Assembly (NCBI GenBank): GCA_034439735.1
Contig: JAWXAX010000122.1
Span: 1 to 42,339 of the forward strand
Source: Rhodothermales bacterium
Lineage (GTDB): Bacteria; Bacteroidota; Rhodothermia; Rhodothermales; JAHQVL01
Direction of reading: 5' to 3'
Length of the DNA stretch: 42,339 bases
The notes under the pieces: generated by a model
Database searches by the model: none
Told to the model about the DNA's origin: nothing
What the model saw: the letters and a program-made list of their open reading frames with translations, nothing else
Made by a program: the position numbers and the translations under genes
In this document: in pieces, positions 4,184 to 42,339 of the stretch
How positions within the stretch are numbered: the first letter of the stretch is position 1
Layout of the letters: the number at the start of each line of letters is the position of its first letter

Positions 4184-4203
4184 CGGTTCAACGTTTCGGG
4201 TTC

Positions 4204-37823: not shown

Positions 37824-38044
37824 ATGATACAAGCCGTTAGATAGCGTATCCGCATCCAGGCTGGAGGCGTCATCTCGGTGCAGGACGCCTCGCTGCCCGA
37901 AGGGGTCCAGGCAGAAGTTATTGTACTCCTTCCCTATGCCATTGGTGATGAAATGCCTCCTCTGACACTGGCCAACATGTTGGAAGCGGCAAAGGATTGT
38001 TCGCCACACCGGAGGACGACGCGTACATGATGCCCGTCGCGTGA
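37824..38044 (+). pseudogene. Decayed antitoxin-like gene (MazE/AbrB-like short antitoxin)
   Basis: From ATG 37824 the frame reads MIQAVR, an in-frame TAG (37842-37844), then RIRIQAGGVISVQDASLP, EGVQAEVIVLLPYAIG and LANMLEAAK. A one-base shift after AAK restores LFATPEDDAYM before a stop at 38044. IQAGG...LPEG-EVEVIVL and an ATPEEADAY tail are typical of small antitoxins paired with PIN toxins. No toxin gene follows. It lies in the remnant of the second integron cassette (left of the attC site) and reads opposite to cassette direction. Confidence 0.6.
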
Positions 38045-38102
38045 GCGGGTTGGGCAAGCAAAGCCCTTTGCCGCCCCCGCCCCCGAAGCCTCAAGCCGAA
38101 GC

Positions 38103-38169
38103 GGATAACGCCCTGCGGTTCACCTGCGCGCCGCGAAGCGGCGTGACAGGTGCAACCGCTCGTTATGCC
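38103..38169 (-). other. attC recombination site of an integron cassette
   Basis: Read on the minus strand: 1L GGCATAACG (38169-38161), 2L GCGGTT G CACCTG with an extra unpaired G, a hairpin core CACGCCGC TTC GCGGCG, 2R CAGGTG/AACCGC, and 1R CGTTATCC (38110-38103). All four arms pair (ATAACG/CGTTAT, GCGGTT/AACCGC, CACCTG/CAGGTG, core 8 bp). The two extrahelical bases (plus-strand C38153 and A38146) sit on the 2L side, as in known attC sites, and the CGCCGCTTCGCGGCG core resembles that of the aadA cassette. It lies 82 bp after the hydrolase stop codon. Confidence 0.85.
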
Positions 38170-39237
38170 TCACCGCCCGAGCGGGAAACGACATCTAGGA
38201 AGCCTGGAGTGGTTGACATCCGCGGCAGACCTCTGCGACGCGCCGGCGAATCAGCGCAGGAACTCCTCAACGTGCCGAAGAAAGGCGTCGGCCTGCTCAA
38301 GGTGCGGGAAATGGCCGGAACCTTCCACGAGGACCAACCTAGCTTCGGGAAACGCCGCCTCCCATTCCGCGGCGGAGACAGCCGGGATCGGATCCTTGTC
38401 GCCGTGGATGATCAGGACCGGCACCCGAGCGTCTCCGAAGTCGGCTCGCCAATCCCAGTCCCCCATCGGTCCCAACACGGACGCGTAAACGAGCCCGCCG
38501 TTGCGTATCGCCTCGGGCGGGGCGTCGCAGACATCGCCGCGCATCCGCGCGTGCAGGGCCGTGTCGTGGGGATCGGCGAAGTAGCCGCGGGCAAAAACCG
38601 ACCAGTAGGCCCGACACGCGGCCACCGGATCGCTGGCGTCGCGGCGGGCCTCCGCGAGCGTTGCGACCCGGGCCGCAGTGGTGCTGTCCATCCATGCATG
38701 CAGATTCTGACCGAACTGTTGCATGTAGGGTGTGGCCCGCGGCGGAATGGCGTCCACGAGGATCAGCCGCGCCGCGCGGTCCGGGTGCGATCGAGCGTAA
38801 TGCGCGGCGAGGCCCGCACCCCAGGAGTGTCCGAGGAGGGTCACGCGCGTCAGCCCAAAATGTCCCCGAACGGCCTCAAGATCCCTGATATGATCGGCGA
38901 GCCGCAACCGCATGGAGTCCGTCAGAACCGTCGACCGACCCGCGCCTCGCTGATCGTAAAAGATCAACGCGTGGTTCCGCGAGAGGAGATCGAGGTCCGG
39001 AGCCAAATAGGCTGAGCTGAGGCCAGGCCCACCGTGAAGCACGATGAGGGTGTCCGGTCCGCTACCCAACAACTGGTAGTGCAGCCGTACCCCGTCGTCG
39101 GTCAGCACATGTCCCTCGTGCACCTGTTCGAGCGGCACCGGCAGGCCCTGACATCCGGCGCTTGCCGCGATCAATAGCACGGTCCCCACTACATAAATCA
39201 TTCGTTCCATGGCTCCAACTCCCTGTTGTAGGCATAA
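38109..39237 (-). mobile_element. Integron gene cassette (1129 bp) carrying the alpha/beta hydrolase
   Basis: Boundaries come from the G/TT cut points: 1R of the attC (38109/38108) and the GTTATGCC sequence at 39238-39231 on the minus strand. The attC 1L (GGCATAAC) is the exact complement of GTTATGCC, as required if both formed one attC in the free circular cassette. One gene, short leader and attC make up the whole segment, the normal cassette layout. No second attC was found on either side. Confidence 0.8.
38251..39210 (-). CDS. Alpha/beta hydrolase (proline iminopeptidase-like, S33), lipoprotein, cassette-encoded
   Basis: 319 residues. Leader MERMIYVVGTVLLIAASAGC ends in a lipobox. Oxyanion loop LHGGPGLSSAY, the YDQRGAGRS motif, nucleophile elbow LGHSWGAG, catalytic Asp in IIHGDKDPIP and His in GSGHFPHLE are all in place. 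A Shine-Dalgarno-like GGGAG/TTGGAG precedes the ATG. The fold is that of S33 aminopeptidases and related epoxide or ester hydrolases; substrate unknown. Expression would come from the cassette promoter at 39261. Confidence 0.93.
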   Translation of the reverse strand: MERMIYVVGTVLLIAASAGCQGLPVPLEQVHEGHVLTDDGVRLHYQLLGSGPDTLIVLHGGPGLSSAYLAPDLDLLSRNHALIFYDQRGAGRSTVLTDSMRLRLADHIRDLEAVRGHFGLTRVTLLGHSWGAGLAAHYARSHPDRAARLILVDAIPPRATPYMQQFGQNLHAWMDSTTAARVATLAEARRDASDPVAACRAYWSVFARGYFADPHDTALHARMRGDVCDAPPEAIRNGGLVYASVLGPMGDWDWRADFGDARVPVLIIHGDKDPIPAVSAAEWEAAFPEARLVLVEGSGHFPHLEQADAFLRHVEEFLR

Positions 39238-39261
39238 CTAATAATATCCAGTCCTTGTCAA
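39231..39261 (-). promoter_or_regulatory. attI-like junction with candidate cassette promoter
   Basis: On the minus strand a perfect TTGACA (39261-39256) is followed, after 17 bp, by GTTATG at the recombination point; the -10 match is poor. The junction GTTATGCC (39238-39231) has no attC-like arms upstream of it, as expected for attI. The intI relic starts 172 bp to the right and reads away. The placement fits a Pc-type promoter for the array. Confidence 0.5.
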
Positions 39262-39409
39262 GATATCACACCCGGGCTGCCGGATGCAACGACGGGCAGA
39301 ATAAAGTGCTTACGGCGAAGGTACGTTTCCTATTGAGCCGTTGTCTGGATAAGAGGATTATGACCTCCCTCCTGCCGACATCCAGGGAAATCCCACCTCT
39401 TCGACTGCC

Positions 39410-39819
39410 ATGGAACACCGCCGTCCACCCGAGCCAAAGGTGCTTTCCCGGCTCCACGAAGCCTGCCGGCTTCGCCACCTGAGTCCGCGAACCGAAAAAG
39501 CGTACGCCAGCTGGATTCGACGCTGCGCCCACTACGACAACCTGCGCCACCCGGCCATAATGGGTGCGCGCGAAATCAAGCAATCCTCTCCCACCTCACC
39601 GCTCACTGCCATGTCTCGGCATCCACACAGAACCAGGCACTCAACGCACGGCTCTTTCTCTACCGCCATGTGCTCGGCCGCATCGTCGACTTCTGGACCT
39701 CAAGGTCGCTCGGTGTCGATTCGGCGATCTTACAAAGTCGCATGACCGCCTCGAACAGGATGCCCTGCAGCTCCTCCAGCGATCCCGTTTTCCGTTTCCT
39801 GGGCCCGGCCATGATGTGA
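39410..39819 (+). pseudogene. intI: Decayed integron integrase
   Basis: From ATG 39410: VLSRLHEACRLRHLSPRTEK, AYASWIRRCAHYDNLRHP and MGAREIKQ, then one base missing near 39584-39585, then LSHLTAHCHVSASTQNQALN and ARLFLYRHVLGRIVD up to about 39690. This is the N-terminal SAM-like domain of IntI-type tyrosine recombinases; the catalytic domain is missing. Beyond 39690 the frame runs to a stop at 39819 without similarity, and on the minus strand a 50-codon frame (39812-39660, MAGPRKRKTGSLEELQ...) overlaps it. It is divergent from the cassette, which is the normal integron arrangement. Confidence 0.75.
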
Positions 39820-40101: not shown

Positions 40102-40203
40102 ACATTGTGTATCTTGAGGCCGTCCAGATCCTTCGGAAAACAGGGAAAAACCTTTAGTTATACTTTTAGTTGTTTTCCGGTATGTAACGCATGAATGCAT
40201 CCT

Positions 40204-41442
40204 ATGGCGACGATCTCAATTGTCCGCTACCCGGGCATGAAAAATCACGAGGGAACGGTCCCGCTCTATCTCCGCGCGTCAGCGGGTAACAAGGTTCGAT
40301 ACGCCTCGCTCAACGTGCGCATACCGGAAGCCGACTGGAACAGTCGGACCGAGCAGGTTCGAAAAACCAACCCCCACCACGCAAACCTGAACCGGTACTT
40401 GCTGGATGTGAAGTCGGAGGCGCAGGCCGTCCTGGCCGAGTTATTGGCCAAGGGACAACAGGTGACGGCCGCGCGGCTCCGCGACGGACTCCGCTCGAAG
40501 ATCGACCCGGAAGAGGAGCAGAACGCCGGCGATTTCCTGGCGTACGCCATGGAGCTTTGTAATGAATACGAACGGCGGGGGCAGATTTCAACGTTCGAGA
40601 GCTACCGTACCTCCGTCCTTCAGCTGCGTGACTTCATGAAGGCCAGGTATGGCCGAGCGGAACTACCGTTCGAGGAAATCACTGTGACGCTGCTGCGAGG
40701 CTTCGAGACGTATCTACACGAAACGGTGAAGAGCGCGATCAACACCGTTCACAAGCGGATGCGATCGATTCGCACGCTGCTCTATACATCCATTCGAGAC
40801 GGCCGCTTTCCCCAGGAGCAAAACCCATTTTTTCAGCTCAAGCTGAAGTCAGCCAAAGTGGAGAAGGGCCGTCTTTCCATCGAGGAAATTGAAGCCATCG
40901 AACGTCTGGAGCTTCCAGCACATTCGCCGATCTGGCACACGCGCAATTCCTTCCTCTTTGCCTTTTACGCCGGCGGCATGCGGTTCTCCGACGTTGTACT
41001 GCTTCAGTGGCGTCATGTGCAGGGAGACCGGCTGTCTTACAAGATGAAAAAGACAAACGAGGCCACGTCGATAGCGCTTGTCCCGCCGGCGTTGAAGATC
41101 CTGGAGTTCTACGCGGATCGTCGGACATCACCCTATGGGAGCGTTTTTCCCATGATCGACGGCTACGACACATCGACCCAGCGCGATCTGCACAATGCCA
41201 TCAGCAGCCGGAATTCGCTTGCAAACAAGTACTTAAAGCAGATCCAACAGAAGCTGGGCATCCAGACACGCCTCTCGTTTCACCTTGCGCGCCACAGTCT
41301 GGCCGACTACCTCCGGCGGAAGGGGTGGAGCATTTATGACATCTCGAAAGTGCTGGCTCACGCCAATGTGCGGGTAACGGAGCAGTACCTCAGGGGTTTT
41401 GACAGCGAGGATCTGGACGAGAAGATGCGGTCGGTGTTCTGA
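40204..41442 (+). CDS. Tyrosine recombinase/site-specific integrase, Bacteroidota type
   Basis: 412 residues from ATG 40204 (40195 adds three). An N-terminal Arm-DNA-binding domain (VPLYLRASAGNKVRYASLNVRIPEADW-like, residues 20-45) and a SAM-like core domain (FLAYAMELCNEYERRGQIST) precede the catalytic domain. Catalytic residues: Arg260 (GGMRFSD), Lys near 282, His360/Arg363 (HLARH), His386 (LAHANV), Tyr395 (TEQYLRGF). The full set is intact, so the enzyme is probably active. It resembles integrases of Bacteroidota conjugative or genomic islands. It is unrelated to the intI relic, and no attachment repeats could be identified by eye. Confidence 0.92.
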   Translation: MATISIVRYPGMKNHEGTVPLYLRASAGNKVRYASLNVRIPEADWNSRTEQVRKTNPHHANLNRYLLDVKSEAQAVLAELLAKGQQVTAARLRDGLRSKIDPEEEQNAGDFLAYAMELCNEYERRGQISTFESYRTSVLQLRDFMKARYGRAELPFEEITVTLLRGFETYLHETVKSAINTVHKRMRSIRTLLYTSIRDGRFPQEQNPFFQLKLKSAKVEKGRLSIEEIEAIERLELPAHSPIWHTRNSFLFAFYAGGMRFSDVVLLQWRHVQGDRLSYKMKKTNEATSIALVPPALKILEFYADRRTSPYGSVFPMIDGYDTSTQRDLHNAISSRNSLANKYLKQIQQKLGIQTRLSFHLARHSLADYLRRKGWSIYDISKVLAHANVRVTEQYLRGFDSEDLDEKMRSVF

Positions 41443-41645
41443 GAAGGAGTGGATTTGATCGGTTCGCTTCGCAGGGTTTGGGCGATCGGGGGGAGATCCG
41501 ATCATTCCCGCTTACCCGGTTGGATGGGGCCTAATGTGGCATGGTACGTGTGTCACGTCGTGCTGCGAAACGCAAACCCCGCTCCGTGGGTTAGCAGAGG
41601 CAATCGGTTCACCGTGGAGACCGAAGTACCACCCTGCCTGCTGTT

Positions 41646-42339
41646 ATGGCCAATTTGCTCAACACCCGGACCGTCACGTTCCAGGAATTGCTGGGCATTG
41701 GCAAGAGGTACAGCGTCCCGCTCTACCAGAACGACTACTCCTGGACCGCCGAGCAGTGGGAAGACCTCTGGCTTGATGTGATGGAACTCCAGCCGGACTC
41801 GGAACGGCGCCATTACATGGGCGCTGTCGTCGTCAAAACCGAATCCGACCGGCTCGCGCTTATCATCGACGGGCAGCAGCGTATCGCCACGCCCAGCATC
41901 TTTGGACTGGCCATCATCGCGCGTCCGCACGAACTGGCCGAACGGACGGGCGACTCGGCCAATCGCGAACGCGCGGATGCACTCCGCGCGCGTTTCATCG
42001 GCGAACGCGACCCGGCCCATCTCACCGAAATCAGTAAACTATCCCTCAACGATCACGACGACGGGTTTTACCAGGACTACCTGGTTCAGCTTCGCGCGCC
42101 CAAAAATTCCCGCGCCCTGAAGAAATCGAATAAGCTACTCTGGGAGTGTTTTGTCTACTTCAAAAGGCACCTTGAGCAGGAGTGGAGCGTGGCCACGGAC
42201 GGCATCCGGCTGGCGGAGATGCTCGCGGAGGTGATCGCGCGTCAGCTCCTGTTCATCCTGATCTCGGTGCGCGATGAGATTAGCGCCTACACGGTTTTCG
42301 AGACCCTCAACGCGCGGGGATTGGAGCTGACCACGACGG
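41646..42339 (+). CDS. DUF262 (GmrS-like) domain protein, 3' truncated by the window
   Basis: ATG 41646 opens MANLLNTRTVTFQELLG, and 231 codons run open to the window end. Typical DUF262 phrases are present: YSVPLYQNDYSWTAEQWEDLW, HYMGAVVV, the nucleotide-binding IDGQQR (residues 74-79) and VFETLNARGLELTT. DUF262 is the N-terminal half of GmrSD-type, modification-dependent restriction proteins and of several defence genes, usually followed by an HNH (DUF1524) half that lies outside. It is 203 bp behind the recombinase, consistent with island cargo. Confidence 0.85.
   Translation, partial: MANLLNTRTVTFQELLGIGKRYSVPLYQNDYSWTAEQWEDLWLDVMELQPDSERRHYMGAVVVKTESDRLALIIDGQQRIATPSIFGLAIIARPHELAERTGDSANRERADALRARFIGERDPAHLTEISKLSLNDHDDGFYQDYLVQLRAPKNSRALKKSNKLLWECFVYFKRHLEQEWSVATDGIRLAEMLAEVIARQLLFILISVRDEISAYTVFETLNARGLELTTT

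Follow-up and report, generated by a model that had tools for sequence, protein, structure and literature searches.

A probable relic chromosomal integron and its related attI heads in one Rhodothermales genome

Can an integron be recognized in a stretch of DNA in which none of its genes for recombination has survived at full length? In a working integron the integrase IntI joins the folded attC site of a circular gene cassette to the attI site, and the cassette is then transcribed from a promoter in the integron head. The question is raised by positions 37824-39819 of a contig of 42,339 nucleotides from a Rhodothermales bacterium, which was analyzed over its whole length and is called the window in the following. 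The host order includes Salinibacter ruber DSM 13855 and belongs to Rhodothermia and Rhodothermota in the NCBI nomenclature; the taxonomic ranks of the genome set used here are those of GTDB. An earlier note, made from the letters of the window, had read the locus as an inactivated integron, and this is supported as the best reading by our analysis: we consider it very probable that the locus is a small chromosomal integron that survives as a relic. Neither of the two results named in advance as speaking against it, a grouping of the integrase fragment with Xer recombinases or phage integrases, or a hairpin other than attC at the end of the cassette, was obtained.

The attC site and the cassette that it closes

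The attC site occupies positions 38103-38169 on the minus strand and is composed of an R'' box (GGCATAAC), an L'' box (CGGTTGCACCTG) with one extra base, a short variable stem-loop, an L' box (CAGGTGAACCG) and an R' box (GTTATCC). An extra base in L'' is a convention of attC sites, and it is present here along with all four boxes under both covariance models that were built, R1 and R2. A box-pairing scan of the window returned three attC candidates, of which this one is the best; the two weaker ones, at 4186 and 15797, were not recovered by either model. Not one of 100 dinucleotide shuffles yielded a site of this quality, for which at least 6 outer pairs, an inner score of at least 14 and a length of at most 80 were demanded. 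Folded as DNA, the bottom strand (the plus strand of the window) reaches z = -5.49 and the top strand z = -3.81.

Circularity was to be avoided, and therefore the training sites of both models were taken from arrays beside intI in other genomes of the class, with the window sequence excluded. R1 is a covariance model of 12 joined attC arm pairs with equal box spacing, and R2 is one of 13 full-length attC sites with a structure obtained by RNAalifold. From 60 selected candidates 4 were dropped as false-looking and 9 as near-duplicates, two of the latter (both from locus L060) being restored in R2, and general attC alignments made by MAFFT (A1, A2), in which the inner boxes are badly aligned, were kept out of the models. 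R1 scores the site with 29.3 bits on the minus strand (E 5.6e-5, 279 kb searched) and returns it as the top match in the 5.13-Mb genome of the host (E 1.0e-3), and R2 scores it with 40.0 bits (E 1.9e-7), second in the genome after the attC of a further contig, C80, that is described below. Both models give it the orientation of the hydrolase gene that it follows, so that the attC site claimed by the earlier note is borne out on the minus strand and the covariance check, in which a hairpin of another kind had been the alternative, scores 38103-38168 as a correctly oriented attC. These genome scans scored 150 of 6653 (R1) and 150 of 6137 (R2) first-look candidates, and the attC sites reported for the genome are accordingly a minimum. 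R1 missed or shortened many long attC sites including some of its own training sites, and the attC sites of C80 and of another contig, C137, are absent from its genome-scan list. Matches on contig C51 (37-44 nt; E 0.015 by R1, 0.34 by R2) and on C109, C166, C28 and C84 (E of 1 or more) were not accepted as attC sites. Another attC of this type, 72 nt long and excluded from R1 and R2, adjoins intI in a further genome of the order (G149; L048:1874-1945).

The first bases of a true cassette are complementary to the opening of the attC that belongs to it, that is, the R'' box. Read on the minus strand from position 39237, the first 8 nt (TTATGCCT) are complementary to the opening of the attC (AGGCATAA), and this is the sole match in the 3000 nt examined. 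The cassette therefore begins with TTATGCC at 39237 and ends at 38109, on the G of the R' box (minus strand, 1129 bp), which bears out two proposals of the earlier note, namely the junction at 39238 and one intact cassette with its attC. On the other side of the boundary, positions 39238-39354 hold the attI-like site and the presumed cassette promoter region, on the cassette strand (minus); the region recurs on contigs C137, C80 and C15. Its position beside the intI relic and the four related copies in the genome would fit a putative attI. A candidate for the promoter Pc at 39269-39241 (minus) matches the consensus weakly, at 9 of 12 positions, with 0.3 such matches expected by chance.

The cassette encodes an intact alpha/beta hydrolase of 319 amino acids (38251-39210, minus) of the proline-iminopeptidase-like group, with HGG at residue 59 and GHSWG at 127; it matches PF00561 with 111.5 bits and TIGR01250 with 109.3 bits, the latter below the cut-off of 167.65. 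Relatives at E<=1e-40 occur in 13 of the 244 genomes of the class, the own genome included, and by R2 (E<=0.5) an attC lies beside none of the 11 loci examined, which come from 11 of the 12 other genomes. That the hydrolase travels as a cassette elsewhere is thus unsupported, and the same observation fits an entirely different account of the locus, in which the hydrolase gene would be a chromosomal gene of the ordinary kind, the hairpin would be a terminator or a repeat that arose by chance, and the recombinase fragment would be left over from an unrelated phage or Xer gene. The weakness of the TIGR02249 matches reported below, and their frequency in control genomes, also agree with it. However, this account leaves unexplained the attC models, the complementarity of cassette start and attC, and three related heads with other cassettes, and we regard it as extremely improbable.

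Beyond the attC the earlier note had seen the remains of a second cassette, and this is not supported. Positions 37845-38012 hold a decayed antitoxin-like gene on the plus strand, with relatives of 53-68% identity in 3 other genomes (244 searched); downstream of the one relative that was inspected, in G149, lies an ORF that was judged by eye, from its translation, to be PIN-domain-like. A second R'' box (CGGATAA) is absent before the response-regulator gene, its sole match in the 3000 nt lying 1.66 kb away, and neither R1 nor R2 finds an attC beyond 38103. The opposite strand, the lack of R'' and attC and the antitoxin-like relatives speak against a second cassette at 37824-38060, which was rejected.

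The intI relic and its broken end

The intI relic lies at 39410-39690 on the plus strand and starts with ATG at 39410; it retains just the SAM-like region of the N-terminus, and near 39577 its frame shifts by one base. The hydrolase gene and the attC are on the minus strand, so that the divergent array with its parts in the order and orientation of an integron, as the earlier note had it, is confirmed. In the integrase family TIGR02249, positions 1-47 align at 39440-39580 and positions 47-83 at 39577-39687, in two frames and with scores of 26.5 and 25.2 bits against a cut-off of 265; in this way 83 of 315 positions are left, and the decayed intI claimed for this place is confirmed. The match by itself proves nothing, since the score is weak, a phage-type recombinase on contig C205 outscores the relic (45.7 bits), and TIGR02249 finds matches at E<=0.001 in 14 of 14 control genomes.

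Other comparisons point to IntI. PF13495 matches the relic with 36.3 bits, above its cut-off of 27; within NCBIfam the first piece matches NF011946, 'integron integrase', best (E 6.8e-8, far below the family's cut-off in score), and no Xer family matches it at E<=1. The best solved structure is that of IntI4 (2a3v). The relic is 33-50% identical to each of 22 IntI proteins, which are those of 30 IntI loci that passed a motif filter, and 12-29% identical to four Xer-like recombinases. In an N-terminal tree of 91 columns the relic falls among IntI, weakly supported (29, 43, 14), and one Xer outgroup is misplaced, and hence the tree cannot decide. Taken together, the comparison with IntI and XerC suggested by the earlier note favours IntI by identity, NF011946 and 2a3v, with the tree being weak. 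The start of the relic further aligns with the intI start on C137. Among 309 candidate stretches, a scan with its first 56 amino acids returned two loci: an Acidobacteria MAG has a broken IntI-like ORF (60%) and a Verrucomicrobiota MAG a full one (50%), both ORFs being interpreted by eye; no attC was found beside either locus by R1 or R2 at E<=0.1.

A full-length IntI with its catalytic domain, as a functional integron has it, is absent at the locus, where TIGR02249 positions 1-83 of 315 remain, and no integrase in the assembly exceeds the family cut-off. At about 39690 the relic meets the start of an ORF on the opposite strand (39660-39812, minus, from the ORF listing), which suggests a deletion junction; searched against 59 other related genomes, plasmids or phages, this ORF has no relative at E<=0.01. 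An assembly error could account for the frame change but hardly for the truncation.

Instead of a deletion, the insertion of a tyrosine-recombinase island (40195-42339) into an intact intI may be considered, in which case the remainder of the gene would lie beyond the island and off the contig. The recombinase begins about 500 bp from the broken end and the contig stops inside the next gene, as such an insertion would have it. Yet TIGR02249 positions 83-315 have no match between the relic and the separate recombinase at 40195-41442, and in the assembly, which is 98.1% complete, matches to IntI 83-315 occur only in recombinases of 323, 362 and 415 amino acids, which were judged non-integron from their translations; the insertion is therefore regarded as unlikely. 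Independently of this, the segment 40195-42338 directly beyond the broken intI contains a GmrSD-like gene and the gene of a tyrosine recombinase whose domains are of the Arm-DNA-binding and SAM-like types, and it is possibly the edge of a defence island that is cut by the contig end.

For the relic integron the following course of events can be envisaged. The hydrolase cassette would once have been brought in by the integrase through recombination between attI and attC; after the insertion the last ~230 codons of intI would have disappeared, probably through a deletion with its junction near 39690, and the gene would also have shifted frame. With intI truncated and frameshifted, the hydrolase cassette would have become a fixed chromosomal gene.

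Related heads in the same genome

The genome contains at least four related attI heads, in the window and on contigs C137, C80 and C15, each adjoining its own cassette. The head on C80 (L040, 7948-8823) carries a DinB-like first cassette, whose attC scores 105.9 bits under R2, and then a YdeI/OmdA-like gene, and no intI was seen beside it. That on C137 (L091) lies at the contig end and comprises an attC of 31.2 bits (R2) and a GYD-domain cassette; the contig stops inside the intI start, and a 246-bp alignment with the window reaches across attI and the start of intI with 72% identity. The fourth head, on C15 (L101, 1014-1690), was located with 74.4 bits by R3, an attI profile made from the other three. 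It is associated with HicB-like and HicA-like genes, of which the latter scores below its Pfam cut-off; at most a few codons of intI are left (a 22-bp match), and of an attC only the R'' box was found, with no site detected by R2 or in the genome scan by R1. A gene with TIR and NB-ARC domains (L101:1980-3122) adjoins this integron remnant.

The complementarity of cassette start and R'' box is seen in four of four loci at four different boundaries (TTATGCC/GGCATAA, TTCTGCC/GGCAGAA, TTAGCCG/CGGCTAA and TTATACC/GGTATAA), over 8 nt in three of them and 7 nt on C15, and the attC is on the strand of the cassette gene in all three loci with a model-detected attC. For second cassettes on C80 and C137 no R'' box of their own is present within the sequence at hand. 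Searches of the own genome by plain DNA comparison, with the locus or the attI as query, recovered C80 (121 bp, 70% identity for the locus) and missed C137 and C15, for which R2 and R3 were needed. The absence of the head elsewhere therefore rests on R3, which returned nothing above 16 bits in the remaining 243 genomes of the class under the stricter filters used for large sets. A pattern scan for the attI block in a collection of genome contigs, from which records of the own genome may be excluded, gave 0 matches, and a 29-bp match on C61 inside a transposase-like ORF was taken as chance.

On C80 and C15 the cassette is kept without intI; the C137 contig stops within that gene. It seems that the integron platform existed in at least four copies in this genome, of which three lost or broke intI, the attI-adjacent cassettes staying behind. 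An integrase on C137 could in principle act in trans, and the locus in the window would then not be fully inactive, with its attC cassette and attI still workable. The intI start of C137, which is aligned with that of the window up to the contig end, would fit such an enzyme, but no IntI above cut-off is found in the assembly, and in the attI copies that lack intI the dense blocks are not additionally conserved. The four copies differ pairwise at 16-37% of sites, their invariant sites show no significant clustering (59.5 runs expected, 54 observed, p 0.18), and an excess of unique changes outside the dense blocks is seen in none of the four; these results give no support to attI docks maintained in trans. 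A remaining activity of this kind at the window locus is considered improbable, and it is very improbable that the C137 integrase serves all four attI docks in trans as a dispersed integron, in which the heads without intI would be live cassette ports.

Known integron remnants and the class context

Broken intI genes and integrase-less arrays are already well known, as the cited portions of several studies document (PMC2426708, PMC3607928, PMC12444791, PMC9024848). The inactivated chromosomal integrons of Xanthomonas, as far as the part of the study cited here describes them, have truncated, frameshifted or absent intI genes and kept, fixed cassettes, and they resemble our locus in the broken intI and the retained cassette (PMC12444791). 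Here a single genome of Rhodothermota has four or more related heads, each with one or two candidate cassettes, whereas the Xanthomonas integrons occupy, according to the same part, one site downstream of ilvD with two exceptions (PMC12444791). In Treponema phagedenis, the cited section reports remnants in which attC sites and cassettes outlast the loss of intI, as they do here (PMC3607928). In our case, by comparison with that section, the attI head and the beginning of intI have also been preserved, and the divergent layout therefore stays readable (PMC3607928). A survey of intI genes states in the portion used here that nearly one third are broken by a stop, a frameshift or a major deletion and that more than one integrase gene is present in 20% of bacteria (PMC2426708); as described there it targeted integrase genes, and heads without intI such as those found here are outside its reach. 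The locus also resembles CALIN elements, i.e., attC-bearing cassettes without a usable intI, of which the available description includes an example of S. ruber from the same phylum. However, a CALIN has at least two attC sites without intI in the default setting of IntegronFinder 2 and the window contains one, so that the locus is not a CALIN in this sense and probably escapes default reporting by that program. Relic integrons being known, what is new is another member of this group and its unusual fourfold setting in one genome.

Within the class, IntI above the cut-off was found in 105 of 244 genomes, and 11 of these 105 have more than one such match (manual count). In the own genome and in the two others of its family no IntI was found at E<=1e-30. 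One genome of this family without an IntI match at this threshold, G160, has attC-like sites by R2 at L092:661-787 (35.7 bits) and L093:6597-6726 (23.6 bits), and integrase-less cassettes possibly exist in the family. IntI-like frames that match TIGR02249 over about 15-246 are present in G183 (contig C3, locus L107), G184 (contig C208) and G181 (contig C122), the last with an internal stop; by eye, and for L107 only, the motifs with the catalytic arginine and tyrosine seem to be missing and the IntI-typical region seems to be kept. Such frames are perhaps dead or repurposed IntI genes that are retained in one family. In G164 an IntI match (1-258; C1:3843665-3844438) lies within an open frame of 1074 amino acids, possibly a fusion or an accident of frame. 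In G196 of the same order, a contig of 35,505 bases matches an S. ruber DSM 13855 plasmid with 100% over its first 8000 bases, the part that was searched.

A literature search, mostly of titles and the openings of abstracts, found no study of integrons in Rhodothermota and no paper that pairs the two terms, in line with the remark of the earlier note that they are little described. The class thus appears as one in which integrons are common yet scarcely described. The locus demonstrates that integron history is readable from fragments far below the length at which an integrase profile reaches its cut-off: four heads were recovered, by attC models, the complementarity of cassette start and attC, and an attI profile, from an assembly without an intI above cut-off. 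With several platforms that kept their first cassette, three of four having lost or broken the integrase, the fate of cassettes after integrase loss becomes testable within this genome.
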